26,740 bases of DNA from a virus. Shown here one piece after another: positions 1,543 to 25,891 of the stretch. The stretch lies in the IMG/VR virus record IMGVR_UViG_3300037264_003811, positions 1 to 26,740 of that record; one strand, written 5' to 3'. The notes below the pieces were generated by a model, which worked only from the letters and a program-made list of their open reading frames with translations, was not told the DNA's origin and ran no database searches. Every line of letters begins with the position of its first letter. The stretch's first letter is position 1. The position numbers were made by a program, and so were the translations under genes.

Positions 1543-1914
1543 TTAAGGGTAGACTTTAATTGTTATATACGCCAGCCCACTAAAATCAACCGGGCTGCCA
1601 GCATTATCAAAAAAGTCTATTGCTATTCTATCAGAATCCAGCCAATATGCCACACAGCTGTAAGCGACCCCCCCTTGACCCAATGTTAGAAAAAATAGAA
1701 CTTTATATTGAGATGGAAATTGACCCGTAAGATTTCCAATATAGGCACCAAGTGATCCATATTCCCACACAAAACTCCCACTAAAATTATTTCTCAACTC
1801 TGTAGCAACTGGAGGAGATGCCGTGCCATCTTGTGTTAATATGGCCTCATAGATAAGAGGTTCATTTCCAGAAACTACCCCATCACAACAACAACAGTCT
1901 TTTTTATGTCCCAT
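1543..1914 (-). CDS. Small virion/fibre-associated beta protein with MGHKKDCCCC tag
   Basis: The 123-residue product starts at the ATG at 1914; a longer version would need a GTG at 1941. The ATG is preferred because MGHKKDCCCC then matches the N-terminus of the following gene. After the tag comes a beta-rich domain (YEAILTQDGTASPP, a central VWEYGSLGAYIGN, ending ITIKVYP). This pattern of an ILTQ-x-GT opening, a W-x-Y-x(3)-G-x-Y core and an IKVYP end recurs in small appendage proteins of Bacteroidota phages, but I know no named family. The start overlaps the upstream dioxygenase gene by 11 bases, so the two are probably translationally coupled. A virion location is inferred from context. Confidence 0.75.
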   Translation of the reverse strand: MGHKKDCCCCDGVVSGNEPLIYEAILTQDGTASPPVATELRNNFSGSFVWEYGSLGAYIGNLTGQFPSQYKVLFFLTLGQGGVAYSCVAYWLDSDRIAIDFFDNAGSPVDFSGLAYITIKVYP

Positions 1915-2518
1915 TTTGAAAATACCTATAAATTCGTTCACTCATTCTAATCAGAGGGTCATCTTTAGTTCTACCTATTTTCTCATAAGGAACACCAAAA
2001 CCAAAACTTAACAACACTCTGCGAGAATTAAAAGGTAATGCCCAGTGTTTGTACAAAGAGGCTTCAAACGTATATAAGTCTCCCTCTTCTATATCCCACA
2101 CTTCCTCCCCTACAAACAATTTATAGGATTCTGAAATAACTGGAGTATTGGCTTTTACATTTATATATCCGGGGTAAGCTGTATCGTAGTGTGGCTTAAT
2201 TTCCCCTCCAGTGGATTGATCTATGATTTGTAGGAATATGTTTTCTTTGAATCCTGTTAAATCACTAATCCTCTGAAGTATGTCAAATACCGATGATGGA
2301 AGTTCTTCAGTTCTTAAATTCCCATCACTTTGAAAAGTAGACAGGTAAGTTGAAACCTCCGTCTTAGAGATATCCCACATATGGGCAACTCCCTTTAATC
2401 CTTCTGCTACAGTCTTAATGTGTATATTTTCGACAGTGGAACCCTTTAGACCACTAATAAATTCAAGAATCTTACCTCTTTCTTCGGGGGTTATTGTTTT
2501 ACAAGCCTTAATCCCCAT
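1904..2518 (-). CDS. Fe(II)/2-oxoglutarate-dependent dioxygenase, protein-hydroxylase-like
   Basis: The 204-residue protein has the 2OG-Fe(II) oxygenase signature: an HxD pair (H110, D112, in KPHYD), a distal His (H158, in YKHW) and an Arg (R166 or R167, in NSRRVLLSFGF) suited to binding the 2OG carboxylate. Around these lie the expected double-stranded beta-helix strands, and WDIEEGDLYTF sits where the family has its G-D turn before the distal His. The layout is closer to prolyl or Asp/Asn hydroxylases than to AlkB. The N-terminal 90 residues look helical and are unassigned. The gene overlaps both neighbours and sits directly before two tagged appendage proteins, so hydroxylation of a virion protein is a reasonable inference. 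No substrate can be read from the sequence. Confidence 0.8.
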   Translation of the reverse strand: MGIKACKTITPEERGKILEFISGLKGSTVENIHIKTVAEGLKGVAHMWDISKTEVSTYLSTFQSDGNLRTEELPSSVFDILQRISDLTGFKENIFLQIIDQSTGGEIKPHYDTAYPGYINVKANTPVISESYKLFVGEEVWDIEEGDLYTFEASLYKHWALPFNSRRVLLSFGFGVPYEKIGRTKDDPLIRMSERIYRYFQNGT

Positions 2519-2809: not shown

Positions 2810-5023
2810 TTATGATACCAATGGTGTTGGTGGACACTGTTTATCAAATGTCAGAGTTTCAAGCACTGTTTCTCCATCTCTAACTTCAATGGTAAGAACT
2901 GTGGGTATATCACAGGCAATGATCACAAATTGCCAATCAATTTCGCTAATTGAAACTACTGATGCTAAAGTCACAGTTGATCCAGCAAAAACTGTTGCTA
3001 CAGCAGTTTCAAATGCAGCTTGGAGAGTAGCTTCTAGATCTCCTGTATCACCTAAAAGTATGTTATTGAAATAAATATCACCATCCTCAGTAGTTACTTG
3101 TGAAACATAATCACACTGCTCACAACATCCTGCTGAAGGAATAAATGGTAAAAATAACGGTGCGTTGACACCATCAGATAAGGCTATTATCCAGATGACA
3201 ACTTCAGCCTCTAAATCAAGAAATGAATAGAAATAAGGGTCAGTTGTACAAATGGTAATTGTTACATCTCCTGTGAGTGATCCAGTAACAGTGAGATTAG
3301 AAAATGTAACTCCTTGATTTATAAGAAACGAATATATCAAAGCATATAACTCAGATAGAGTAGAAGCAGCAACTAACCCAAGGCTATTCATAATATTTTT
3401 ACCAACAATAACGATGTCACCACTTTCACCAGTCCATTGTGCCCAATCTGGAATAGTTACACTCCAAGTACATCCACATTCTTCACAAGAGTTATCGAAA
3501 TAAATTCTATCTAATTTACCTGCTGCTCCATCCCCCTCATGTACTATGTGAAAGAGATCTCCTTCCAATATACTATCTGGAAGTCTACAGCCCGTAAATT
3601 GGAAGATAATAGGACTACCTGTTGGGTCTACAAATGCCCCAGCTATTACTGAAACAGTAGGAAGGGGAAGTCCTAAAGACGTATAGATTGGAAAAAGTAG
3701 TGCGAGAAGGTTTGCCTCAATAAGTGCCTGTTGACCTATACTTGCATCATAAGTTCCAATGGGGTCACCAAAGAAGAACAGATCGTCATCAACTAATGCA
3801 CTCTCTATTACTGCTGTATAAACACACTCTTCACAAGGACAATATGCTTGGAAAGTTGCACACTCTCCTGAACTTATAAGCTCAGAACTAAAATCTTCCT
3901 CATCAATGGCCCTGAAAATAGACCATTGGATATAAAAAACGTCATTGGGATCAATTACATTATTGTAATGGGAATCAATTTCTCCTGTAGCTGCACAAAT
4001 AGTAATTGTTACATCTCCAAAGGGATCATCAACAGTAATATTCACTGTTGCTGCTGCACCAGTTCCTCCAACAAGAGCAAGGGCAGCTAAATCAAAAGGG
4101 CTATAATCTGTACCGGGTACATTTAGAACCAACCCAGTGATTTCACCTGCACCACCTATAGTTGTAACTTCTACAATTGCATCATCATTCCCTCCAGTAA
4201 TAGTAAGTAAATCACCAACAGTATACCCTGTACCCGCAGCATTGATAACAGCTGTCAAAACTGCACCTACTCCTACTCCCGTCCCTGTTACGGTTACTGA
4301 ATTATACGTTATATTGTCAAGATTAAGTAAACCTTCTATTTCAGCCTGAACAGCATCTAAGGTATTCTCTGTTAAAAATATAGTAATACCCTCAGTACCT
4401 ACGAGAACAATATTACCGGCAGGATAATCAACAAAGTTCTCAATAGTAATCCAATGTGTTTCTACATCACAACCTGTACATCCCGTAACAGTAGAATCTA
4501 CTCTCCTAATTTGGTTATCTGTAAGAAGTTTACAGCCAGTAATTAAAAATTGCAGTCCAAATTGTGTCTCTATAATGTTGGTACTGGTGAGCTGGTAGGC
4601 TGGAATTCCTTCAGCAGCATAAACTGCTTGTACAGCAGCATTAAAATTATTCCTCAGAGGTGTAATTCCACCACTCCAAAGTCCAAGAGATGTAGCATTA
4701 AAAAAGAATTCATCTGTATCATTGTACTCTGGAAAAACTACCATTTGGGTACAGTCTTCACAGGTAGGGACATCTGAACATTCACAATCACAGGATACAA
4801 ATACTGGATTTTCTACAAGGGTACCATCAGCAAGCTCTACTCTATTGACTGTAGTACCATCTGCAGTAACACATAAGATTAGATATGCATTAATACATTC
4901 CTCCGGGTTAATAGGATCTGATATACAAACATCTCTTATAACAAAGGAAGAACCAGAGTTGGATTGACTTATTGCTGTACGAAGTGCCCTTGTAAGTTCT
5001 TTTGGTGAAAGTTGTGCTCCCAT
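2810..5023 (-). CDS. Large modular Cys-rich virion protein with alternating CxxC-bounded domains
   Basis: The 737-residue protein has a short N-terminal segment (1-87, including CDCEC at 78-82) and then five modules, each opening with a CxxC: CEDC 88-91, CTGC 182-185, CEEC 397-400, CEECGC 513-518 and CCEQC 633-637. Two module types alternate A-B-A-B-A. Type A carries an FFFN/FFFG/YFNN core and usually an ITGC or FTGC end. Type B carries NIVLVG or DIVIVG and ends in DVTITIC. The first B module has an extra insert at about 245-333 with GTGYTVGD and GTDYS, a motif seen in phage tail and baseplate proteins. The ATG follows the upstream stop codon directly. I infer a structural appendage or tail protein; the exact part is unknown. 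Confidence 0.8.
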   Translation of the reverse strand: MGAQLSPKELTRALRTAISQSNSGSSFVIRDVCISDPINPEECINAYLILCVTADGTTVNRVELADGTLVENPVFVSCDCECSDVPTCEDCTQMVVFPEYNDTDEFFFNATSLGLWSGGITPLRNNFNAAVQAVYAAEGIPAYQLTSTNIIETQFGLQFLITGCKLLTDNQIRRVDSTVTGCTGCDVETHWITIENFVDYPAGNIVLVGTEGITIFLTENTLDAVQAEIEGLLNLDNITYNSVTVTGTGVGVGAVLTAVINAAGTGYTVGDLLTITGGNDDAIVEVTTIGGAGEITGLVLNVPGTDYSPFDLAALALVGGTGAAATVNITVDDPFGDVTITICAATGEIDSHYNNVIDPNDVFYIQWSIFRAIDEEDFSSELISSGECATFQAYCPCEECVYTAVIESALVDDDLFFFGDPIGTYDASIGQQALIEANLLALLFPIYTSLGLPLPTVSVIAGAFVDPTGSPIIFQFTGCRLPDSILEGDLFHIVHEGDGAAGKLDRIYFDNSCEECGCTWSVTIPDWAQWTGESGDIVIVGKNIMNSLGLVAASTLSELYALIYSFLINQGVTFSNLTVTGSLTGDVTITICTTDPYFYSFLDLEAEVVIWIIALSDGVNAPLFLPFIPSAGCCEQCDYVSQVTTEDGDIYFNNILLGDTGDLEATLQAAFETAVATVFAGSTVTLASVVSISEIDWQFVIIACDIPTVLTIEVRDGETVLETLTFDKQCPPTPLVS

Positions 5024-5527
5024 TTAGGAATTTAATTTAGAATCTCTGAAAACTATAGAATATCTAAGATTGGGAACTGGTAAGATTGCATGTTTCCAAT
5101 CCCACCTAGATTCTCCTGAAAGTTGAAGAAGACTTTTACTTGGAATTAAAATGTTTGTTTTATCTGGGGTTTTGGTTAAAACCATGTTTGCATCTGATAA
5201 AAGAGAAACTATAGAAATAATAGGTCCACTTTGTTCATTATCTATATGGGCAGATATAGAATCCCCTTTTTGATATTCATTAATTGTAATGTGATCTGGT
5301 CTAGATTTTAGGTATTTATGTTCCACTAATCTATCTAAGAGAAAATTCAAGTATTCCGGTAAATTAGCTGATACAACTTTATTTCCATAGACCTTAGCTC
5401 CGTATCTCCAAATTGAACTTCTACCGGATTTACGTGACTTTTTAGGAGAAACTGGAAGTTTGGAAACTATAAGCTCTTCTTCCTCCCGTGTTATAAAATC
5501 TTCAACAAATTTAAGTCCAGATACCAC
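5024..5527 (-). CDS. AlkB-like Fe(II)/2-oxoglutarate dioxygenase
   Basis: The 167-residue protein carries the AlkB pattern in order: NEYQKGDSISAHIDNE with Fe ligands H94 and D96, an SGESRWDWKH segment with distal H146, and RYSIVFR with R155 and R161, matching the RxNxxFR-type element of AlkB. The N-terminal GLKFVEDFIT resembles the nucleotide-recognition region of the family. At 167 residues it is shorter than E. coli AlkB (216). Family members oxidatively demethylate alkylated bases in DNA or RNA, and some relatives act on proteins. The start is GTG, 12 bases after the upstream stop; the first internal ATG would remove the HxD. It lies between two large virion genes, an odd place for a repair enzyme, so a role on virion proteins or packaged DNA is possible. 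Confidence 0.85.
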   Translation of the reverse strand: MVSGLKFVEDFITREEEELIVSKLPVSPKKSRKSGRSSIWRYGAKVYGNKVVSANLPEYLNFLLDRLVEHKYLKSRPDHITINEYQKGDSISAHIDNEQSGPIISIVSLLSDANMVLTKTPDKTNILIPSKSLLQLSGESRWDWKHAILPVPNLRYSIVFRDSKLNS

Positions 5528-5538
5528 TACATAAAGTG

Positions 5539-7128
5539 TTAAATAATAATAATTGGTTCTTGTGTTATAACAACATTGAAATTAATATGCGTAGTTGGCC
5601 CTTCTCCAATATGAGAACCCCCCTGTGTAATTCTGAAAAAATATCCACGATCCTCATCAGCAATAGGTGCAATAAGTCGTCTCCAACCTATGTACTCTCC
5701 CGCAAAAGTTTCGTATTCTGTATTGTACTCATCTTGGAGTGACAAATAACCAGCTGCAAGTCCTGGTACAAAGGCAGCTGCACTATATGTCCACAATGGT
5801 GTTCCCCCAGATTCATTATGTGTAATTACCTCAATGTTGAAACCAGTATCTGAAAACCCAGCATATCCATCAATTGTAAATTTGGTTAAATGCGAGTTCA
5901 CCATGGATTCATAAAATGCAAATCCAGCATTAAAATCTACTGCATATGATGTGTGATCAACTGTAGGAGCTAACGTAATTTCTACCTGCCCCACCCATCG
6001 TCTTGCAGTCTGATAATATTCATTAGTTGCAATAGTTGTAACATCTGCTACAATAACCTCTGTATCTGCTGGAGTCCTAACTCCATCATCATCAACAGAT
6101 GTTCCAGATATTGTAATATCTGCTGTTCCTGTACCACCAGATGCCGTACCTGCAGCTGCTGCAACAATAAACACATGTGCTCCATACGCCCCATTTGTTG
6201 TACCAATTGTAGTATCATCATCCCCTTGGTTCAGATTATAATCTGTTGCCGCTGCTTGATAATATCCTCCTGCATAAAACTGCCCTGCAAGTCCCTGTCC
6301 CAAATGACTATATGACCGTTCAACTATCTTTGCTGCTTGTTCAATGGGGTCAATCCAGTTCCCATCTTGATTTAGAAACAGGTCAGGAGAAGCCCCCTCC
6401 CCACCAATTCCAAGACAATCATCTACTTCTGCACAAAGTTCTACTTCTATAACTTCAGAACCAGCAGTAACCCCCAATAGATATGGAGGATTACTTTGAA
6501 TTAATGCACCGGCACCATAACCTGATAGTCGTACTTGTCCTGTTGCACCATTGATAAAGAAATTCTCAAAAAGTGTTGTACCAAGTCCACTTGGCAAATA
6601 TATTGCATAAGTACCTATAGGATCTGTTGCTGTAACATCGGACAATACCACATCCAGATTACATGCTGCTACTGGTGTACCAGCACTACCATCAACAAAA
6701 TATTCTGCTCTTACACCTATTCCGGCAGCAGGAGCAGCAGAGGATTCCCTTTGAACACGTAATGCGGGAAGTACAGTGTTAGTAGAAGCAGCAGTAACAG
6801 CACCCGTTATAGCGACTCCACCTCCAGCATTGTTGTGACTTGTAAATGTAGAAGAAGCATCCGTTCCAACAAGAGTAAATGCACTTACATTATTAATTGT
6901 AGTATCAAAACTTGCTTGATTATGGGTTCTGTTTGCATTTTGAACAAGATTGTCCTCGAAGAAGTTAGTATCAGTTGCTGCTGTAGATGTTATATCTATA
7001 GTACCTGCAACACTTGCATCAAGTGCAACAGTTCCATCTGAAGATGTAAGCTCTACAACATCATTATAGGTTACTTCAAAGTCATTGACTCCATCAGAGA
7101 GAGTAAATTTTTGAATAAGATGTGACAT
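5539..7128 (-). CDS. Probable virion fibre or appendage protein, beta-rich
   Basis: The 529-residue protein is rich in Thr, Ala, Gly, Asp and Asn with few Lys, typical of trimeric phage fibres. The N-terminal region (1-60) has short strands (KFTLSDGVNDFEVTYNDVV) that may be the anchor. The middle (60-260) looks like repeated beta turns, and the C-terminal 230 residues form a likely beta-sandwich with WVGQVEITLAP and IDGYAGFSDTGFNIEV. A short helical EQAAKIVERSYSHL near residue 270 could be a hinge. It shares one base with the upstream peptidase stop (TAATG), so translation is probably coupled. Receptor binding is inferred; no named domain is recognised. Confidence 0.7.
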   Translation of the reverse strand: MSHLIQKFTLSDGVNDFEVTYNDVVELTSSDGTVALDASVAGTIDITSTAATDTNFFEDNLVQNANRTHNQASFDTTINNVSAFTLVGTDASSTFTSHNNAGGGVAITGAVTAASTNTVLPALRVQRESSAAPAAGIGVRAEYFVDGSAGTPVAACNLDVVLSDVTATDPIGTYAIYLPSGLGTTLFENFFINGATGQVRLSGYGAGALIQSNPPYLLGVTAGSEVIEVELCAEVDDCLGIGGEGASPDLFLNQDGNWIDPIEQAAKIVERSYSHLGQGLAGQFYAGGYYQAAATDYNLNQGDDDTTIGTTNGAYGAHVFIVAAAAGTASGGTGTADITISGTSVDDDGVRTPADTEVIVADVTTIATNEYYQTARRWVGQVEITLAPTVDHTSYAVDFNAGFAFYESMVNSHLTKFTIDGYAGFSDTGFNIEVITHNESGGTPLWTYSAAAFVPGLAAGYLSLQDEYNTEYETFAGEYIGWRRLIAPIADEDRGYFFRITQGGSHIGEGPTTHINFNVVITQEPIIII

Positions 7129-7835
7129 TAAATTCTAGTATAAACGGTTACATTATTAATCTTAGAAGCTCTGTAGGTATTTTTCTTTTTATTATCTTCT
7201 GGATTTAGTGAGTATGCTACATGTATCCAGTTTGGGACATTAATTCCAAATTCCCAAATTAAGACATAATACTCTAAATTGTTCTTTATGTGGTTAAATA
7301 ACTCAAGGTTAGTAGGTCCATTTGGAGATCCATCTTGGTCTATATCTATTGCACAAATATTACCAAGGACCATATGATGACTTGTTGGAGATCCACCAAC
7401 TTTTGTATTAAGTTCTTTAGATCTAAAAAATGACGATATATGTATTGGTTTATTAAAATAAGATCTAAGAGGATCAAAGAACTTAGTTCCAGCATTCCTC
7501 ATTATTGATAATTGTCTATCATCAGGAATGTTAGAAACATTGTGAGAGGTTCTTACTGATTCAATATAGCTGATGTACTTGGATATACGATAAGGTCTTT
7601 TTGGTTTATCATTTCCAGTACTTCCTGAGGACTGATTCCCTTCAAAATTGCGCAGTCCTCCAAGGTTGGGTATAGAATCTGTTCCCCACTTAGAGTAGTT
7701 TCCAAAATGGGAGAATTGTATAAAAGCATATTCTCTTCCATATTGTAACTCTCTGGAGTAGGAACTTCCTGATGTAGAGAACGTCCAAAGGAGGACAATA
7801 ATACTACTAAGAACACGACCGATCCTATAATCCAT
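7128..7835 (-). CDS. M15-type zinc peptidase (peptidoglycan hydrolase), signal-bearing
   Basis: The M15 domain occupies about residues 82-210 of 235. It has RISKYISYIESVRTS at its start, FDPLRSYFNKPIHISSFFRS, VGGSPTSHHM, AIDID and NWIHVAY. Likely zinc ligands are H153 or H154, D164 and H205. The spacing from the first His to Asp is longer than the usual HxxGxAxD, by about three residues. M15 enzymes cut D-Ala-containing or L-Ala-D-Glu peptide bonds in peptidoglycan, so this is either the endolysin or a virion-borne wall hydrolase. In this frame the N-terminus (VLSSIIVLLW) is signal-like, followed by a poorly structured linker. A second open frame overlaps the first 94 codons, and the two may really be one gene (see next entry). 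Confidence 0.75.
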   Translation of the reverse strand: MDYRIGRVLSSIIVLLWTFSTSGSSYSRELQYGREYAFIQFSHFGNYSKWGTDSIPNLGGLRNFEGNQSSGSTGNDKPKRPYRISKYISYIESVRTSHNVSNIPDDRQLSIMRNAGTKFFDPLRSYFNKPIHISSFFRSKELNTKVGGSPTSHHMVLGNICAIDIDQDGSPNGPTNLELFNHIKNNLEYYVLIWEFGINVPNWIHVAYSLNPEDNKKKNTYRASKINNVTVYTRI

Positions 7836-14132: not shown

Positions 14133-15683
14133 CTAGAGGGTTACCGCGGGCTTAAACCAGGCGGTTAGGCTGACGTCCTTAACTCTAATGCCAAAGGTAT
14201 CAGCTGCATAAAGAATATAAGATCTATTGGGACCTGTACATGGGAAGGCTCCACCACCACCTCTGCCATTGTTAATTGGGCCCATAGGTGACCAAGTTCC
14301 ACATTCATAAGTAAATACTTCTGAATCTGCTCTCTTAAGAAGTTCGATATTAGAACCAGTTCCATTTCCGAGGCCATGATCTAATACAATAAACTCATAA
14401 GAAGTAAGTGGAAGGCCAGTAGATGGGTGCAAGAGAGACCCATTAAGGTAAGTAGAGTCTAAAATAGACCAATGTTCTACCCTAACTGAACCAAAAGGCT
14501 GAATATTATACTTGGTAAACTGAGCTGTTTGGAACTCATACCCATTATAGTTCTTGGGATCAAAAGCTTTTGTTGTCCCTACAAATCTATTAAAGTCAGC
14601 TACAACAGCAGAAGTAGAGAACTTCTTAGCAATCCAGTCATTCCAAAGTTTCAGACCACCCTGACCTGTGTAGATAACTATATTTCTTTGATCTGGGGGA
14701 ACTCTATCAAACCATACTGCCTGAAGGAATTCTACAAACATATCAATAGAACCACCTTCTACAGGATAATCAATTACATTACCATCTTCAAGAAACTCAA
14801 GTAGACCGGGTCCACCCCTTCTATGATAAGATGAAGTTTCATCAGTCTTAGTTCTACCAATATCTCTACCATAGTAGAGCATCAGTTCTTTTTCCCACTT
14901 AGCTTGACGCAGGAACTCTGCCTCAATCCAAGAAATAAGCTGAGCTGGATAATCTGTCATCAAGGCTCCCTTAGCATCACAGGCTTGAAGTTTTAGGTTA
15001 AGTTGGTGAGCTTTATTTGTGACTTCCACATGCTTACCCCAATCAGTTAGGCTAGATTGAAACTCAATATAGGACATACCCATAAACTGAGTTGACCCGT
15101 AACCTCTAGAAGCTTCTCCATATACAGCTCCCAACTTGATCCATCTAAGATTAGACTCTAAGAGCTCAGGAGGGAAGAATGAGCTGGGGTCTTTGTCTGC
15201 TAGGACTACCGGGTAGATAAACCCTGAACCATGAGATCCTGGAAGTTCTTCCACAATAACAGAGGCTTCCTTGGCAACGTCAGGGGCTATAATATCACCA
15301 ACTACAAAAGATTCAAGATCTAGTTTAACATTAAATCTAGTACCATGTACCCCAGGAGCGGCTACACCAGGATGTTGGTTTTCATAGGAAACTGCCTGGA
15401 CTTCCCCAGTACCTCGAAGTTTCCACCTTACATAGTCAGTATCAATAGTTCTTACCCTACCTGAACCTTGAAGCCAGTTCTGCAGAGAAGTTCTCCCAGT
15501 TTCAAGAGAGGGAGCATGGGTTGAGATGTACTGAATTACCGGATCTGTGAGGTCAATCCAAGGTTTTACAAATTGATGAGTATGTAAGAGAACATTCTCA
15601 TCGGCATAATTTGCCCAATATTTGTCTCTCTTAGTAGACTCCTCATAGATCTTAAATTTAGATACGCCCTGAGTAGGTCTCAT
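14133..15683 (-). CDS. Major capsid protein, HK97-fold type
   Basis: The 516-residue protein has the size, composition and position of an MCP: after TerL, portal and a scaffold candidate. The N-terminal 60 residues form a charged arm, and YVRWKLRGTGEV (84-95) leads into the likely E-loop. Helical and beta parts of the P and A domains follow, with a long helix around IEAEFLRQAKWEKELMLYYG (253-272) and VEFLQAVWFDRVP near 317. IVIYTGQGGLKLWNDW (335-350) is a turn commonly seen in crAss-type MCPs. The gene ends with TAG and the next begins 20 bases on, so TAG is a stop here. No protease domain is visible. The family call is from overall resemblance. Confidence 0.85.
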   Translation of the reverse strand: MRPTQGVSKFKIYEESTKRDKYWANYADENVLLHTHQFVKPWIDLTDPVIQYISTHAPSLETGRTSLQNWLQGSGRVRTIDTDYVRWKLRGTGEVQAVSYENQHPGVAAPGVHGTRFNVKLDLESFVVGDIIAPDVAKEASVIVEELPGSHGSGFIYPVVLADKDPSSFFPPELLESNLRWIKLGAVYGEASRGYGSTQFMGMSYIEFQSSLTDWGKHVEVTNKAHQLNLKLQACDAKGALMTDYPAQLISWIEAEFLRQAKWEKELMLYYGRDIGRTKTDETSSYHRRGGPGLLEFLEDGNVIDYPVEGGSIDMFVEFLQAVWFDRVPPDQRNIVIYTGQGGLKLWNDWIAKKFSTSAVVADFNRFVGTTKAFDPKNYNGYEFQTAQFTKYNIQPFGSVRVEHWSILDSTYLNGSLLHPSTGLPLTSYEFIVLDHGLGNGTGSNIELLKRADSEVFTYECGTWSPMGPINNGRGGGGAFPCTGPNRSYILYAADTFGIRVKDVSLTAWFKPAVTL

Positions 15684-16969: not shown

Positions 16970-19558
16970 TTATTTCTTTTTAGGAGAAGCAGGTCTAGGA
17001 ACTGGTTTATTGGCTACAATCTTTTTAACCTTAACTTCATCTTCTGACACTTTAAGCTCATCCTTATGTTTCTTGAGTTCTAGATCTCTATCCTTTTGTC
17101 TCTCTCTAGCTTCATGGTTGAGTTTAAAAATCTCAAACTGTAACTGTTCCCTTTTAGCCTGGAGATCATCATCAATGCTGTTCATATCAATATCTTGTTG
17201 TTGAGCAAACCTACTAGACTCAATCTTAGCTATTAAGAGCTGATTCTGATGCTCCCTATTTTGCTTTTCTAGGTCTGCTTGGGTGGCTAGATTAGCAAGT
17301 TCCTTCTGCATCTGAGCCTGCATTTGGAGCATTTCTTGTTCTTTTCTAGATTGTTCTTCTCTTAGTTTCTGGTTCTTTTCCTCAGCCTGTTCTGCTATGT
17401 TTAGTACATCAGCTCCTGAACTAGCCCATTGGAGCTTGATTAGTTCAGGAAAACTAATAAGGCCATTTTGAATCATGGCTTGGCCTAGTTCTTTGACTTT
17501 TTGGATATTGTTAAAGTCTTTAGAAGAATTTCTGATCTTAATTCCTAACTCAGCCTGGTCTAGAACCTCCCAATCTACTTCTAGGTCAGCTATACTCATA
17601 TCATCCAGGAGATAGGTACGGGAGAAATCATTGTCTCTAAAGGCATTTCTACATGCTTTGACCATGATGTTTAGTACATTTTCCACTATCTTATTATGGG
17701 TAGAGAAGATATCTTCAGTCTGGTAAGAGGACTGAACTATGTTCTGTTGGTTGTTAGTAACAGCAGTGTAGGCTCCTACTTGTCCTAATCTTGAGGGATT
17801 GTAGGACATAGAAATAGCAACTTGGTTTCTAAGAAATTCAAGATACTGGAGTTTACCTGCTATGTCATTTATGGTAGAAAGGTCAATTTGTTTTATAATT
17901 TGAGCATCAAATGGAGTGAAGTTTTCTTGGTTTGCATCTACTACTGCTATTTTGCCATACTTCATCATCATTAGAAATTTCTGCCAACTCCAGTCCTTGG
18001 GTTTGGCACCTTCGGCCCAGACAAGAATTTTCCCAATATCAGTGGCTTCCATTTCATGGATTCTAGCCATCTGGACATTAAACTTATATTGCCAGGGTTT
18101 ACCAAGATCAATAGGTGCTACATTCTCCGCATTACCAAAAAGTTTATTATACTCTGCTCCTACATAAGGAAGTTTAACAACCCAAGGATCATGAATAGAT
18201 CTATGGGCATACGGGATAGGACCTTTTTCTAGATAGATAGCATCTCCTACCCCAATCTTGGTACACTGATAAGGTTCTGGAATCCAAGCTATATCCTGCT
18301 TAAAATCTCCCTTGGTTTTATTAAAGACATATGACTCATCACACCAAAACTTTAAAACTTTCCCATTTTGATTTCTATGAACCCTCTTAAACTTTCTTAG
18401 AGACTTATAGACTATATGAGCTTTTCTAATTGAGTTATAAGAGTCAATATCTGAACCAAACCTTGAATAGAGAGATTTGATGTGATTTTGACCATCTATA
18501 GTTCTAATATCTGGAATATTGGACAGAACACCGGTTCTGGTATCATACTCTGCTATTTGAGAGACCATTCTTGGATCTAGTTCACCTACCCTTCCACCAC
18601 CTCCTACTGAGAAGACCTCAAACATTTGTTTAAGGTGTTTCTCCTTCATTAGATCCCCATACTGAGAGAAGAAGTCAGTGAACTTCATATACTGCTCATA
18701 TTTGGCCCACTCTCCATCTTCTATAAACATAGTGTTGGCAGAGCCTGAGTAGGAGAATCCCATAGAATTCACCAGCTCAATAACTGGTTTATCATGTCTA
18801 ACTCCTATATAGTAGATTTCTTCTCCAGTGATTAGGGCATGTTTAAAGCCCTGATCTGTTATGAATTTAATGTCATACTCATGAAGTAGGTAATCTAGAA
18901 GTTTCTGAGCTTGAAGTTCTGAAGGAGACTTATACTCATTTCTCATGAAATTTTCAATCTCCTTGGGAGTCTTAGACTTTACCTTCTGTTGGATCTCTGA
19001 GTTTAGATCTTGTTGCTCCTCTGGTTTAAGAGAGTAGGGGTCTTGGACTCCATGTCTCATCATTACCTCTAAAGTAATCTGTTCTAGGGTTGGCCCAATA
19101 ATAGTCTCCTGAATATGGGATTGAAGGAGCTCTAATCTCTTCTTTTTTCTAAAGTTAACCCCATAGCCAGAAGCATCAATAGCCATAGGATTAAGGGGCC
19201 GCATTTGCTGTTCCCCTACTAGACTCTTGGCTATTTGATCTATAACAGAGTGATGTCTTACATTATCCTCTATGAAGATTTCTTCATCTTCATCAGGGAT
19301 GTGCATACTTGAATAGTGAGACATTGCCTCTTCACCCCTGCCATTGTAGAGATTGTAGTTTAGTTTTAGTCTTTCTATTCTCTTTTTAGAGTAGTGAGAT
19401 CCATGATAGTAGTCATAGTAGTCTGCACAGTTCTCTACCCACTCAAAGTCATTAGCTTTCTTTTTATCCCAAGAAAGTCTCTGAATTGGAAGCCTTGGGC
19501 CAGTCCAGAACTTATCAGAACCATAGTCTTTAGAGTACTTCGAGAATTTAGAATGCAT
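16970..19558 (-). CDS. Portal protein
   Basis: The 862-residue product begins at the ATG at 19558 (a longer version would need TTG at 19603). The ATG overlaps the TerL end by 11 bases. Portal-type features: an N-terminal region with FEWVENCADYYDYY, an Asn/Tyr-rich LNYNLYNGRG segment, SLVGEQQMRPL (about 113-122; a G-E-x(3)-R-P pattern typical of crAss-like and P22-like portals), long helices with SMSYNPSRLGQVG..., and a C-terminal Lys/Glu/Gln-rich coiled coil (about 700-840) like the barrel of long portals. The size and position directly after TerL support it. It would form the 12-fold ring through which DNA is packaged. Confidence 0.85.
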   Translation of the reverse strand: MHSKFSKYSKDYGSDKFWTGPRLPIQRLSWDKKKANDFEWVENCADYYDYYHGSHYSKKRIERLKLNYNLYNGRGEEAMSHYSSMHIPDEDEEIFIEDNVRHHSVIDQIAKSLVGEQQMRPLNPMAIDASGYGVNFRKKKRLELLQSHIQETIIGPTLEQITLEVMMRHGVQDPYSLKPEEQQDLNSEIQQKVKSKTPKEIENFMRNEYKSPSELQAQKLLDYLLHEYDIKFITDQGFKHALITGEEIYYIGVRHDKPVIELVNSMGFSYSGSANTMFIEDGEWAKYEQYMKFTDFFSQYGDLMKEKHLKQMFEVFSVGGGGRVGELDPRMVSQIAEYDTRTGVLSNIPDIRTIDGQNHIKSLYSRFGSDIDSYNSIRKAHIVYKSLRKFKRVHRNQNGKVLKFWCDESYVFNKTKGDFKQDIAWIPEPYQCTKIGVGDAIYLEKGPIPYAHRSIHDPWVVKLPYVGAEYNKLFGNAENVAPIDLGKPWQYKFNVQMARIHEMEATDIGKILVWAEGAKPKDWSWQKFLMMMKYGKIAVVDANQENFTPFDAQIIKQIDLSTINDIAGKLQYLEFLRNQVAISMSYNPSRLGQVGAYTAVTNNQQNIVQSSYQTEDIFSTHNKIVENVLNIMVKACRNAFRDNDFSRTYLLDDMSIADLEVDWEVLDQAELGIKIRNSSKDFNNIQKVKELGQAMIQNGLISFPELIKLQWASSGADVLNIAEQAEEKNQKLREEQSRKEQEMLQMQAQMQKELANLATQADLEKQNREHQNQLLIAKIESSRFAQQQDIDMNSIDDDLQAKREQLQFEIFKLNHEARERQKDRDLELKKHKDELKVSEDEVKVKKIVANKPVPRPASPKKK

Positions 19559-21911
19559 GGAATGGTTGTTTAGTTTTTCTAGAGTTCCTCTTAGAGTGTC
19601 CAAATGGCTTCATAATACTACTAAATAGGTTATCTAGACTATCCTTTTTAGGGTCTTTATCAGTAGCCTCTAGCATGTAGACCTCTCTTTCCTGGGATAA
19701 CCATAAGACAAGGAGTTTAAAGCTAGACACATGGTCAAAGTTTCTCTGTCTATCATAGGTTATAAGTTCAGAAAGTAATCTGGGAGACTTGATTTTATCT
19801 AAGTTTAAGAGAACCTTTCCATCAGGAAGAGTCTTCCAAGACTCCAATAACCACTGTCTTAAAAGTTGCTCACAGTGAATATTTAGTCCTTTAGACATAG
19901 AAATACCTACTTCATATTTTCTAGAAGGATTTAAAAGGGCCTTAGAAATAGCCTCATAAGGAGAGATCTGAAGAAGGTGATATCTACCATTCATCTTACA
20001 GTACCTAATAAAATCTGGTAGATTGTTTTCTACCATGACCTTGGCATTGTAGTAAATGGCTAGCTTAATGGCTATTTCATGAACATCATTGATAGAGTCA
20101 TATCTTCCTATATATTCAGCTACTATATCATCCTGGGTTCCTTGATTCCAGTTGTTTTCAGAGTACCCTTTATGAACTAAGATAGAGGCAAGAGAAGTAC
20201 CATATCCATCATCTTTAAGTGGGTCATAGGAGATCTTATAAAGTGACCTCTTATAAGTGGGACTAGGGATCCTATCAGGAGGATGCTCATAAACTACTAT
20301 ACTTCCATTAATCTGTCCCTGAAGAGAGTCTAGATTCATAGTTGTTATGGGTTTAGATCTTCTAGATAGGTCCTCTTCCCATACTGTTCTGTTTCTTTCT
20401 TGAGGGTCATAGTGTAGAGTCCCAATACTGGCCCAGATTCTAAACATATCATGAGTCTCAATGTAGGCTAATCTTTCTCTAAGCTTAGCAGTAGGAAAGA
20501 TTGTACTAGAAAGAGTCAAGAACATCTCACTAGGTACAATTGGCCTAGCCATAATATACCCATCTAGAGCTGCAGAGGTATCTGATTTTTCTCTCTTAGC
20601 TCTTTCACTTAACTCTTGTTCATAAGCTAATTCTAGGTTGGTGTTTCCATTCTCATCCTTGAAGTCTGTATCTACATAGTAGGCCGGTATAAAGAGCCCT
20701 ATAGGTTTAGATCTTCCTTCCCACAGGTCAGGATAAGGGAGCATGTTATAAGACTCTGGATCCTCAAAAACTATTTTAGACTCCACAACCTTCTCCATAT
20801 TCCCAGCGGTTCCTATAAGTATCAGAGAACCAAACTTAGTTCTTCTCATCTGAGCCGTTTCTGATGCTGCTAGAACATCTAAAAGATTAGGAAGAAGTCC
20901 TACTTCCTCTATAACAATAACTGTAGGGCCATGACCTACAGCAGCTTGAGGGTTTTCTACAGTAAATACACCATGTAGAATCTTAGTCCCTGTACCTCCA
21001 ACCATCCAAGTATTACCTTCATAATACTTATATTCATGCCTAAATGGAGAATCAAAGTTATTTGGGGTAAGTTTTCCAACAGAGTCATTGGCAAAGTACC
21101 CTGGTATAAATTCTTCTCCTTTACCCCATGCTCCAAAGTGTTTTTTAATCCATTCCTGAGTATGGAAGAATTTCTTAAGGAGTTCAGCTGATTTAGCCCC
21201 CTGAGCTGAGCCTACAAAAACTTCAACCCCTGCAGGAGCTGTTAAGTAAGACTCATCAAAAAATCTCTTACCATAGAAGTTATATTCGTGTCCTATGATA
21301 GCATTTGCAGTGAAATAAGATTTTGCTGATCTCCTACTTCCAAAAATTAGAAGATTAAGTGCCTCATTATCAAACAGAGGTTTTCCTAGAGGTTCCTTAA
21401 ATGTGTGATAAATGTAATCTCTGGCCTCTATATATTCTTTATAAGAGCCATCTGGCTTAAGAAGATTGGGTTTATGCTTCTGTAGGAGCTTGGTTTCTTT
21501 GGGAGAAAGTGGTTTATTATCCTCTATCTTCTTTACTATTCTATTACAGGTAAACTTATTGTCTCCATCAAAACCTGAGAACCCCCTGGCTGTTATCCAA
21601 CCATAAGAATAGATCCACTCTACATCTCTTAAGAGAGGAGTTATGATCCTTTCTGTATTCCCTTTTTCATCCTCATCTCTAATAATACAGAAGTTCACAT
21701 AGTAGTATAAGAACCCTGGCATGTATCTCCAGCCACCACTTTCTCCATCTGAGTCTAATGCCCAAAACCCCTCAAGGCACCTTTTTTCATGCTCTTCCCA
21801 GTATTTCTGATAAGCAGTAGTGTCTGGGTGATATTCTGGATGATCCTTAAATAAGAAACTAGAGATACTGTATAGTAAGGGGAATAGTCTGACTGGGCCT
21901 TTCTCTTTCAT
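19548..21911 (-). CDS. terL: Terminase large subunit (ATPase and nuclease)
   Basis: The 787-residue protein has the two terminase domains. ATPase: Walker A GSRRSAKS (191-198) after LLIF, Walker B VIVIEE (331-336) with the catalytic Glu, and a coupling motif LILIGTAGN (363-371). RNase H-like nuclease: acidic residues in YDPLKDDG (561-568), VENN (626-629) and a C-terminal RLLSELITYD. The N-terminal part with YYYVNF and RGFSGF looks like those of large Bacteroidota-phage terminases. It packages DNA into the procapsid through the portal. It begins six bases after the TerS candidate. Confidence 0.95.
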   Translation of the reverse strand: MKEKGPVRLFPLLYSISSFLFKDHPEYHPDTTAYQKYWEEHEKRCLEGFWALDSDGESGGWRYMPGFLYYYVNFCIIRDEDEKGNTERIITPLLRDVEWIYSYGWITARGFSGFDGDNKFTCNRIVKKIEDNKPLSPKETKLLQKHKPNLLKPDGSYKEYIEARDYIYHTFKEPLGKPLFDNEALNLLIFGSRRSAKSYFTANAIIGHEYNFYGKRFFDESYLTAPAGVEVFVGSAQGAKSAELLKKFFHTQEWIKKHFGAWGKGEEFIPGYFANDSVGKLTPNNFDSPFRHEYKYYEGNTWMVGGTGTKILHGVFTVENPQAAVGHGPTVIVIEEVGLLPNLLDVLAASETAQMRRTKFGSLILIGTAGNMEKVVESKIVFEDPESYNMLPYPDLWEGRSKPIGLFIPAYYVDTDFKDENGNTNLELAYEQELSERAKREKSDTSAALDGYIMARPIVPSEMFLTLSSTIFPTAKLRERLAYIETHDMFRIWASIGTLHYDPQERNRTVWEEDLSRRSKPITTMNLDSLQGQINGSIVVYEHPPDRIPSPTYKRSLYKISYDPLKDDGYGTSLASILVHKGYSENNWNQGTQDDIVAEYIGRYDSINDVHEIAIKLAIYYNAKVMVENNLPDFIRYCKMNGRYHLLQISPYEAISKALLNPSRKYEVGISMSKGLNIHCEQLLRQWLLESWKTLPDGKVLLNLDKIKSPRLLSELITYDRQRNFDHVSSFKLLVLWLSQEREVYMLEATDKDPKKDSLDNLFSSIMKPFGHSKRNSRKTKQPFHAF

Positions 21912-24989: not shown

Positions 24990-25274
24990 TTATCTACTTC
25001 TCTTAAGAGATTCTATTTCCCTTTTAGAGTCTTCTATAAGATCCTGATTAAGATTCAGTAGAAAAGAAATTTTCTTTTTCACAGCTTCTATATCTGGGAT
25101 ATTATCTAAAGAATCCCACACTACAGAATGAGTTCCACCTCTATCTGGTTTAACCCTTCCTGCTTGTAGAACTTGTAAATACTGAATATAGAGTCTCACT
25201 GATTCCAACTCTGTTGGATCTGTAAGATCAAATATTTCTGATGGTTTAGTGTTTACTATGTATTCTCCTGACAT
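24990..25274 (-). CDS. Small acidic-basic helical protein, unknown
   Basis: The 94-residue protein (start MSGEYIVNTK) has an ATG within the last codons of the upstream gene (19-base overlap) and ends 27 bases before the co-chaperonin gene. The middle has RLYIQYLQVLQ, and the C-terminal 35 residues form a charged coiled coil (KKKISFLLNLNQDLIEDSKR). It may be an oligomeric accessory factor. No domain is recognised. Confidence 0.65.
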   Translation of the reverse strand: MSGEYIVNTKPSEIFDLTDPTELESVRLYIQYLQVLQAGRVKPDRGGTHSVVWDSLDNIPDIEAVKKKISFLLNLNQDLIEDSKREIESLKRSR

Positions 25275-25591
25275 TGTTGATTTATTAAATATTGGGTTTT
25301 AAATTTTCTAAATTCTTGAAAGTTAGGTCTGTCTTCAATAACTCCATCACAAGGAGCAGTAAGAAATGGCCCAGCATTTCCTTTAATATCTTTGCCAATT
25401 CCAAATATTCCAGTCATAAACTCAACTAGACTATTTATACTACCAGTATTAGGAGTATAGGGAATAGTACTACTGTCCTTCGGGAATTCAAACAGTCCTG
25501 GACCCATCTCCCTCTTGGGCTTAGGTTCCCAGCACTCTGCACTATTAGTACTAAATATTTGGTTTCTATATTTTATTAATCTTATTCCCAT
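25256..25591 (-). CDS. Small protein, possibly the body of a frame-disrupted gene
   Basis: From the first ATG (25591) this frame encodes 111 residues beginning MGIRLIKYRNQIF. It has a Gly/Pro-rich middle (GPGLFEFPKDSSTIPYTPN), a helical LVEFMTGIFGIGK and a Cys near the end. A short frame directly upstream (25566-25634) begins with MAGLAMFDKMV and would run into this one if one A were removed from the AAAA run. The longer version starting with TTG at 25615 is less likely. The real N-terminus is probably the upstream one. Function unknown. Confidence 0.55.
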   Translation of the reverse strand: MGIRLIKYRNQIFSTNSAECWEPKPKREMGPGLFEFPKDSSTIPYTPNTGSINSLVEFMTGIFGIGKDIKGNAGPFLTAPCDGVIEDRPNFQEFRKFKTQYLINQQCQENT

Positions 25592-25634
25592 ATTGTTGTT
25601 GAACCATCTTATCAAACATTGCTAATCCTGCCAT
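25566..25634 (-). pseudogene. Short upstream frame: possible displaced N-terminus of next gene
   Basis: ATG at 25634, with AGGGG 7-11 bases upstream, opens 22 codons (MAGLAMFDKMVQQQYGNKIN and two more) before TAG. The sequence looks like a proper phage N-terminus rather than noise. A +1 shift at AATAAAATATAG (one A fewer in the A4 run) would give KINKYRNQIFSTNS and continue through 25256. It could be a true mutation, a sequencing or assembly error, or a programmed event. Confidence 0.45.
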
Positions 25635-25663
25635 TTATTTCCCCTTTTGACTAACTTGTCTAA

Positions 25664-25891
25664 TCAGTATGGGAAGAGGAACATCTCCTTCTCACTAAAT
25701 TCTCCACTATACTCTGCTGTCATAAAAGGAACTTTCTCTAAAAGCTCTGATACCCTAAATCCATAATCTAGGGTTATAAATTCATAACTGGAGATAGGTT
25801 TGTCATAGAGTGTATAGTTTGCTTTAAACTGTGCAATTCTACTAACATCTTTTACTAGTATACCGTACTCACTCTGATGTCTGAGTTTCAT
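25664..25891 (-). CDS. Small protein, 75 residues
   Basis: The ATG at 25891 has GGAGG upstream and overlaps the previous gene by 23 bases. A longer frame from 26047 would overlap that gene by 179 bases and is not preferred. The product has YTLYDKPISSYEFITLDYGF in its middle and an acidic end. SYEFITLDYGF resembles SYEFIVLDHGL in the MCP (428-438), with ELL a little later in both. Homology or coincidence is undecided. The stop is TGA. Confidence 0.55.
   Translation of the reverse strand: MKLRHQSEYGILVKDVSRIAQFKANYTLYDKPISSYEFITLDYGFRVSELLEKVPFMTAEYSGEFSEKEMFLFPY

Follow-up and report, generated by a model that had tools for sequence, protein, structure and literature searches.

AlkB enzymes and their closest described relatives

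AlkB enzymes are found in cells and, among viruses, in giant viruses and RNA viruses of plants. A text search of one literature library returned no paper naming AlkB together with crAss-like phages, and we know of no functional data for the AlkB of an uncultured Caudovirales phage (UniProt A0A6J5Q1J5). Among ALKBH8-type proteins, all that could be purified repaired DNA to some extent in vitro, and the R. etli ALKBH8 was able to repair etheno adducts; Agrobacterium lacking ALKBH8 showed no raised alkylation sensitivity, its ALKBH8 had no role in tRNA-Gly wobble modification, and RNA modification was favoured by the authors for the canonical bacterial ALKBH8s (PMC4051686). Human ALKBH8 carries its own RRM and acts on tRNA. 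S. pombe Ofd2, with a presumed small lid, interacts with histones; no DNA repair was detected and a protein substrate was proposed (PMC3175000). A protein substrate was likewise proposed for ALKBH7, which has no lid (PMC11431407).

The locus compared here with these systems is an AlkB gene in the window, by which we mean the whole 26,740-base stretch analysed, an IMG/VR record. The record is a fragment, and the early region of the phage falls outside it.

The AlkB gene in a block of virion genes

The minus strand carries the large genes of the window, between about 26.5 and 1.5 kb. Farther up this block, profile matches gave firm assignments for the terminase large subunit (19548..21911, minus strand; phrog_6681, E = 2.1e-95), the portal protein (16970..19603, minus strand; phrog_6547, E = 1.2e-80) and the major capsid protein (14133..15683, minus strand; phrog_11589, E = 8e-45; 55–70% identity in eight viral contigs). 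Over 96% of its length the terminase was 36% identical to its counterpart in Cellulophaga phage phi14:2, with many crAss-like records matching more weakly, and the capsid protein was 29% identical to those of Flavobacterium phages. Judged by terminase, portal and capsid, this 26.7 kb fragment derives from a phage related to crAss-like phages, and it was left without a family-level assignment. Small ORFs upstream of the terminase, in the window (25140-25867) and in a 124.9 kb relative (L002 1817-2920), contained short segments similar to parts of the major capsid protein, in an order that differed from that in the protein itself. Window 25579-25403 resembled capsid residues 268-324 (E = 4e-5) and L002 2525-2734 resembled residues 277-334 (E = 5e-8), both E-values applying to a 20–27 kb subject only.

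The AlkB gene (5024..5527, minus strand) runs from 5527 to 5024 and encodes 167 aa. Its GTG start, reported in the initial annotation, was confirmed: the GTG at 5527 is the only standard start in the frame that keeps the conserved N-terminus, and the frame stays open farther upstream but offers no ATG, GTG or TTG there. The same annotation placed the gene, with no spacer, between two large virion genes. This was accurate on the downstream side, where the AlkB TAA (5024-5026) abuts the ATG (5021-5023) of a 737-aa gene (0 nt), and inaccurate on the upstream side, where the stop of a 529-aa gene at 5539 is 11 nt from the AlkB start at 5527. The AlkB gene is real, intact and of phage type, and the block that holds it does contain virion genes; both flanking genes are likely to be virion genes as well. 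The 529-aa product (5539..7128, minus strand), a probable tail or virion protein, shared 34% identity across 151 aa with a product of 742 aa that sits at a similar position in a crAss-like relative (L028), and its gene is directly preceded by that of an M15-type peptidase or endolysin (7128..7835, minus strand; PF08291, E = 2.6e-9; phrog_894 endolysin, E = 9.9e-17). The 737-aa product (2810..5023, minus strand), a probable virion protein, gave only weak PHROG matches, head decoration among them (E = 4.4e-6), and no relatives of it were found by scanning. A further ORF of 204 aa (1904-2518, minus strand) carries a PHYD...KHWA...RRVLLSFGF pattern like that of a second 2OG dioxygenase; this assignment was rejected, as the motif stood alone: neither family nor PDB searches gave a match, and no fold match was confident.

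The gene starts in the block are A+T-rich, and none of those examined has a clear Shine-Dalgarno sequence. The AlkB start is not unusual among them, so its GTG says little about how much enzyme is made, and low expression, which had been proposed from this codon, does not follow with any force. Promoter-like sites in the AlkB region were no commoner than in shuffled sequence; since the gene also lacks a promoter spacer of its own, it is probably co-transcribed with its neighbours. Its position in one block with the structural and lysis genes of the phage makes production in the late phase probable, as had been suggested from the outset.

Fold, active site and phage clade

The window AlkB matched PF13532 (2OG-FeII_Oxy_2; E = 2.9e-13, 50.9 bits, cut-off 31.2) and, in the PDB, human ALKBH8 (E = 1.7e-15), both far beyond chance. 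By alignment, E. coli AlkB N120, Y122, H131, D133, H187, R204 and R210 correspond to window N83, Y85, H94, D96, H146, R155 and R161. All on the minus strand, these comprise the NxY motif of the 2OG pocket (N83 and Y85; 5273..5281), the HxD iron ligands (H94 and D96; 5240..5248), the third iron ligand (H146; 5090..5092) and R155-YSIVF-R161 (5045..5065), which holds the 2OG-binding arginine and the AlkB-type second arginine. The family matches and intact catalytic residues bear out the original description of an AlkB-type enzyme. An AlphaFold2 model was built on a 71-row alignment of mostly bacterial proteins, in which the lid was poorly aligned; it gave a mean pLDDT of 87 and a pTM of 0.83, with most of the core above 90 and residues 31-50 at about 60. 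The model has the double-stranded beta-helix AlkB fold and matched AlkB-family structures in Foldseek (E 3e-14). VIA-align Z values, to be read as ties when within 1 of each other, were 20.1 for Ofd2 (5yl6), 20.0 for ALKBH8, 19.7 for ALKBH6, 19.3 for ALKBH5, 18.4 for ALKBH7 and 17.5 for E. coli AlkB, and the low end of the AlkB family overall was 16.5. With the active site and the fold both conserved, the protein very likely has dioxygenase activity.

Phage relatives were recovered by alignment-based scans of viral contigs, which found L124 first and then L126-L131; a scan of viral contigs with the window AlkB as a single protein found nothing, and tblastn of 50,697 phage records gave no AlkB relative below E = 0.01. 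The window AlkB was 36–42% identical to clade AlkBs from unrelated phages, and the proteins recovered by these scans were 37–41% identical to it over most of its length. All 8 rows of the clade alignment matched PF13532, and in every clade member the lid contains R-[NS]-x-[IV]-x-R-[YF]-G and the 2OG pocket NEYxKG. A tree of 43 rows joined the window, L124, L126, L127 and L129-L131 proteins in one group with support of 100/100, beside bacterial ALKBH8-like proteins. An earlier tree without the phage relatives, in which the window AlkB stood on a branch of length 4.6, was set aside. Profile-profile comparison of the phage clade with the ALKBH8-like alignment gave E = 2.7e-45, a value inflated by the presence of the window AlkB as first row of the latter. 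The nearest solved relative of the phage-clade profile was ALKBH8 (E = 4e-25), followed by NMAD-1. The closest viral structure to the model was A0A6J5Q1J5, which is also phage-encoded (156 aa, 40% identity, TM 0.81 to the model).

The lid signature was absent from all other AlkB homologues scanned outside the phage clade. Among the matches fetched as best loci from 395 Bacteroidota and 398 Pseudomonadota genomes, none carried it, and on no fetched locus did the phage model outscore the ALKBH8 model by more than about 5 bits; this comparison covers best loci only and uses a phage model built from the very sequences it recognises, and it is a sample rather than proof that cells lack the signature. 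On sequence grounds, the window AlkB is assigned to a clade known to date from phages alone. New here is this phage-only AlkB clade with a lid signature of its own, as distinct from an ordinary bacterial AlkB.

Lid, neighbourhoods and probable role

The nucleotide-recognition-lid region of the window AlkB (residues 24-56; 5360..5458, minus strand) was modelled with low confidence, as three predicted strands at pLDDT of about 60, and contains 8 K/R and 0 D/E. Within it lies R36-S-S-I-W-R41-Y-G43 (5399..5422, minus strand), the window form of the signature found in 8/8 phage alignment rows. The initial annotation had pointed to the lid and base-recognition residues as the features to compare with AlkB: a lid region is present, and it is short and different, with E. 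coli W69 and Y76 not conserved. From the first helix to LPEYL it spans about 30 residues, versus about 50 in the long lid of E. coli AlkB, an enzyme that otherwise shares the fold and the Fe/2OG residues; W69 aligns with a gap and Y76 with K45. The E. coli base-contact residue D135 also falls at a gap, and ungapped counting from H94 places E98 there, a position that is not acidic in the other clade members. Bacterial ALKBH8-like AlkBs, represented by a Roseobacter denitrificans plasmid pTB4 protein, are the sister group, with the same core and about 30% identity. They differ in their KRRVQHYGYRYDY lid, in HIDCxPCF and in an additional loop ahead of the final RxSxxxR, all three of which the phage clade lacks. 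Where these proteins have the ALKBH8 lid motif, the clade carries its short signature.

We propose, with about even confidence, that the window protein is an accessory AlkB-family dioxygenase of the phage clade, a dealkylase or hydroxylase acting late on alkylated nucleic-acid bases and repairing them by direct reversal. Made with the structural and lysis genes in the late phase, it would consume Fe(II), oxygen and 2-oxoglutarate to oxidise base-attached alkyl groups in nucleic acid that is single-stranded or flexible, which could be phage DNA before packaging or late mRNA or tRNA, and direct reversal would restore the coding or template function of those bases. A nucleic-acid substrate is suggested by the usual role of the family, by ALKBH8 and NMAD-1 as nearest solved relatives, by the basic lid and the protein's pI of 9.4, by the in vitro DNA repair of purified ALKBH8-type proteins (PMC4051686) and by the repair-gene neighbours of some cellular homologues (an error-prone polymerase; an SOS peptidase and a glycosylase). 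E. coli-like specificity is disfavoured by the short lid and the unmatched W69 and Y76. Counting against nucleic-acid repair are that same lack of W69/Y76 counterparts, a lid charge that is not conserved in the clade (near neutral in L129-L131, basic in the window AlkB), the top Z of Ofd2 (tied with ALKBH8), for which a small lid is presumed and no DNA repair was detected, and the unaltered sensitivity of Agrobacterium after loss of ALKBH8.

By sequence, the closest solved structure is that of the human ALKBH8 AlkB domain (3thp and 3tht), from an enzyme that hydroxylates the tRNA wobble position. It speaks for an alternative in which the phage enzyme hydroxylates or demethylates one particular base of a tRNA or mRNA and so promotes late translation, with repair as a side activity. 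The preference for RNA modification expressed for canonical bacterial ALKBH8s (PMC4051686) is in keeping with this. We consider it unlikely: KRRVQHYGYRYDY and HIDCxPCF are absent from the window AlkB and from all clade members, the lid differs from that of the human domain, the protein has no RRM or methyltransferase domain and the window has no tRNA genes. Removal of host- or phage-applied base methylation, as a counter-defence or epigenetic eraser rather than in response to damage, is suggested by the second-nearest solved relative, NMAD-1, which was deposited as a DNA N6-methyladenine demethylase. The similarity to NMAD-1 is distant by sequence and no partner of the methyltransferase or restriction type was recognised in the window; we rate this reading as very improbable.

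An AlkB had originally been expected among early or replication genes. That this is the rule is not supported: phage AlkBs were found in both settings, behind DNA ligase genes (L019, L021, L125) and in head modules (L127, L018). Within the clade, L127, whose AlkB is identical to that of L128, has the order terminase (phrog_2, E = 3e-12), 752-aa portal-like protein, 377-aa acidic scaffold-like protein, AlkB and 394-aa capsid-like protein; a profile backs the terminase, and the other three calls come from order, size and composition. The L124 AlkB gene lies shortly before those of the small and large terminase subunits. The remaining members have no clear structural module around them: in L126 the AlkB gene overlaps the end of a 1112-aa gene with a helicase gene near, and in L129-L131 it lies near genes for ThyX, a trypsin-like protease and glycosyltransferases. 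Three of the five clade lineages (window, L127/L128 and L124) are therefore in or beside virion modules, and since such modules occupy a large part of phage genomes, no significance is claimed for this number. An AlkB among virion genes recurs, as does an AlkB among repair genes, and the virion location is not claimed to exceed chance.

Outside the clade, an ALKBH8-type AlkB (L018 928-1560) is flanked by a phage portal gene on one side and by a prohead protease and capsid gene pair on the other, with an apparent small antitoxin-type gene next to it. In L019, L021 and L125, related phage contigs of which one is 448 kb, an ALKBH8-type AlkB lies close behind an NAD-dependent DNA ligase. One viral-labelled contig has an AlkB domain within an ORF of 935 aa (L022 6351-9158); apparent genes for an integrase and for a conjugation-type ATPase are also present, and the contig is possibly a mobile element.

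The gene may have come to lie between virion genes by accident, its late expression being functionless; this account, compatible with any substrate and not exclusive of the others, we rate only a little short of an even chance. A crAss-like relative of 124.9 kb (L002, G001) has the same gene order from the terminase through the capsid gene (70% identity) to several small downstream genes and has no PF13532 match anywhere on the contig, and L028 gave no blastp match to AlkB, though it covers the corresponding region. On the evidence of these two informative relatives, AlkB is accessory in this phage group. GC around the gene is 33%, versus 38–40% in most neighbouring windows, and the differing neighbourhoods of clade members also agree with accidental placement. 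Against it stand the L127/L128 member inside a head module, the L124 member beside terminase genes, and the retention of catalytic residues and lid signature over deep divergence, which indicates that the AlkB protein itself is under selection.

The short lid bears on a further alternative, in which a small lid and an open active site would let the enzyme hydroxylate a virion protein from the same operon. Because the small lid of Ofd2 and the lack of one in ALKBH7 go with proposed protein substrates, this is a rival to nucleic-acid repair, and it is strengthened by the high Z of Ofd2 (20.1, at 25% identity), by that of ALKBH7 and by the adjoining structural genes. The nucleic-acid enzymes ALKBH8, ALKBH6 and ALKBH5 score equally high, the gaps below 1 being ties; the lid signature is kept across the clade; and the L126 and L129-L131 members are outside any clear structural module. 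We regard a protein substrate as quite unlikely, and late repair of nucleic-acid bases stays the preferred reading.

A more specific idea, that the phage AlkB lineage remodelled its lid for a late task tied to assembly, be it clearing of lesions before packaging, entry into the virion or hydroxylation of a capsid or tail protein, is doubtful; a tie to assembly, if true, would newly connect base repair with packaging. With a lid signature of its own, the phage-only clade offers a set of small proteins for studying how AlkB substrate choice evolves, and for asking whether alkylation damage is countered by phages in the late stage of infection.
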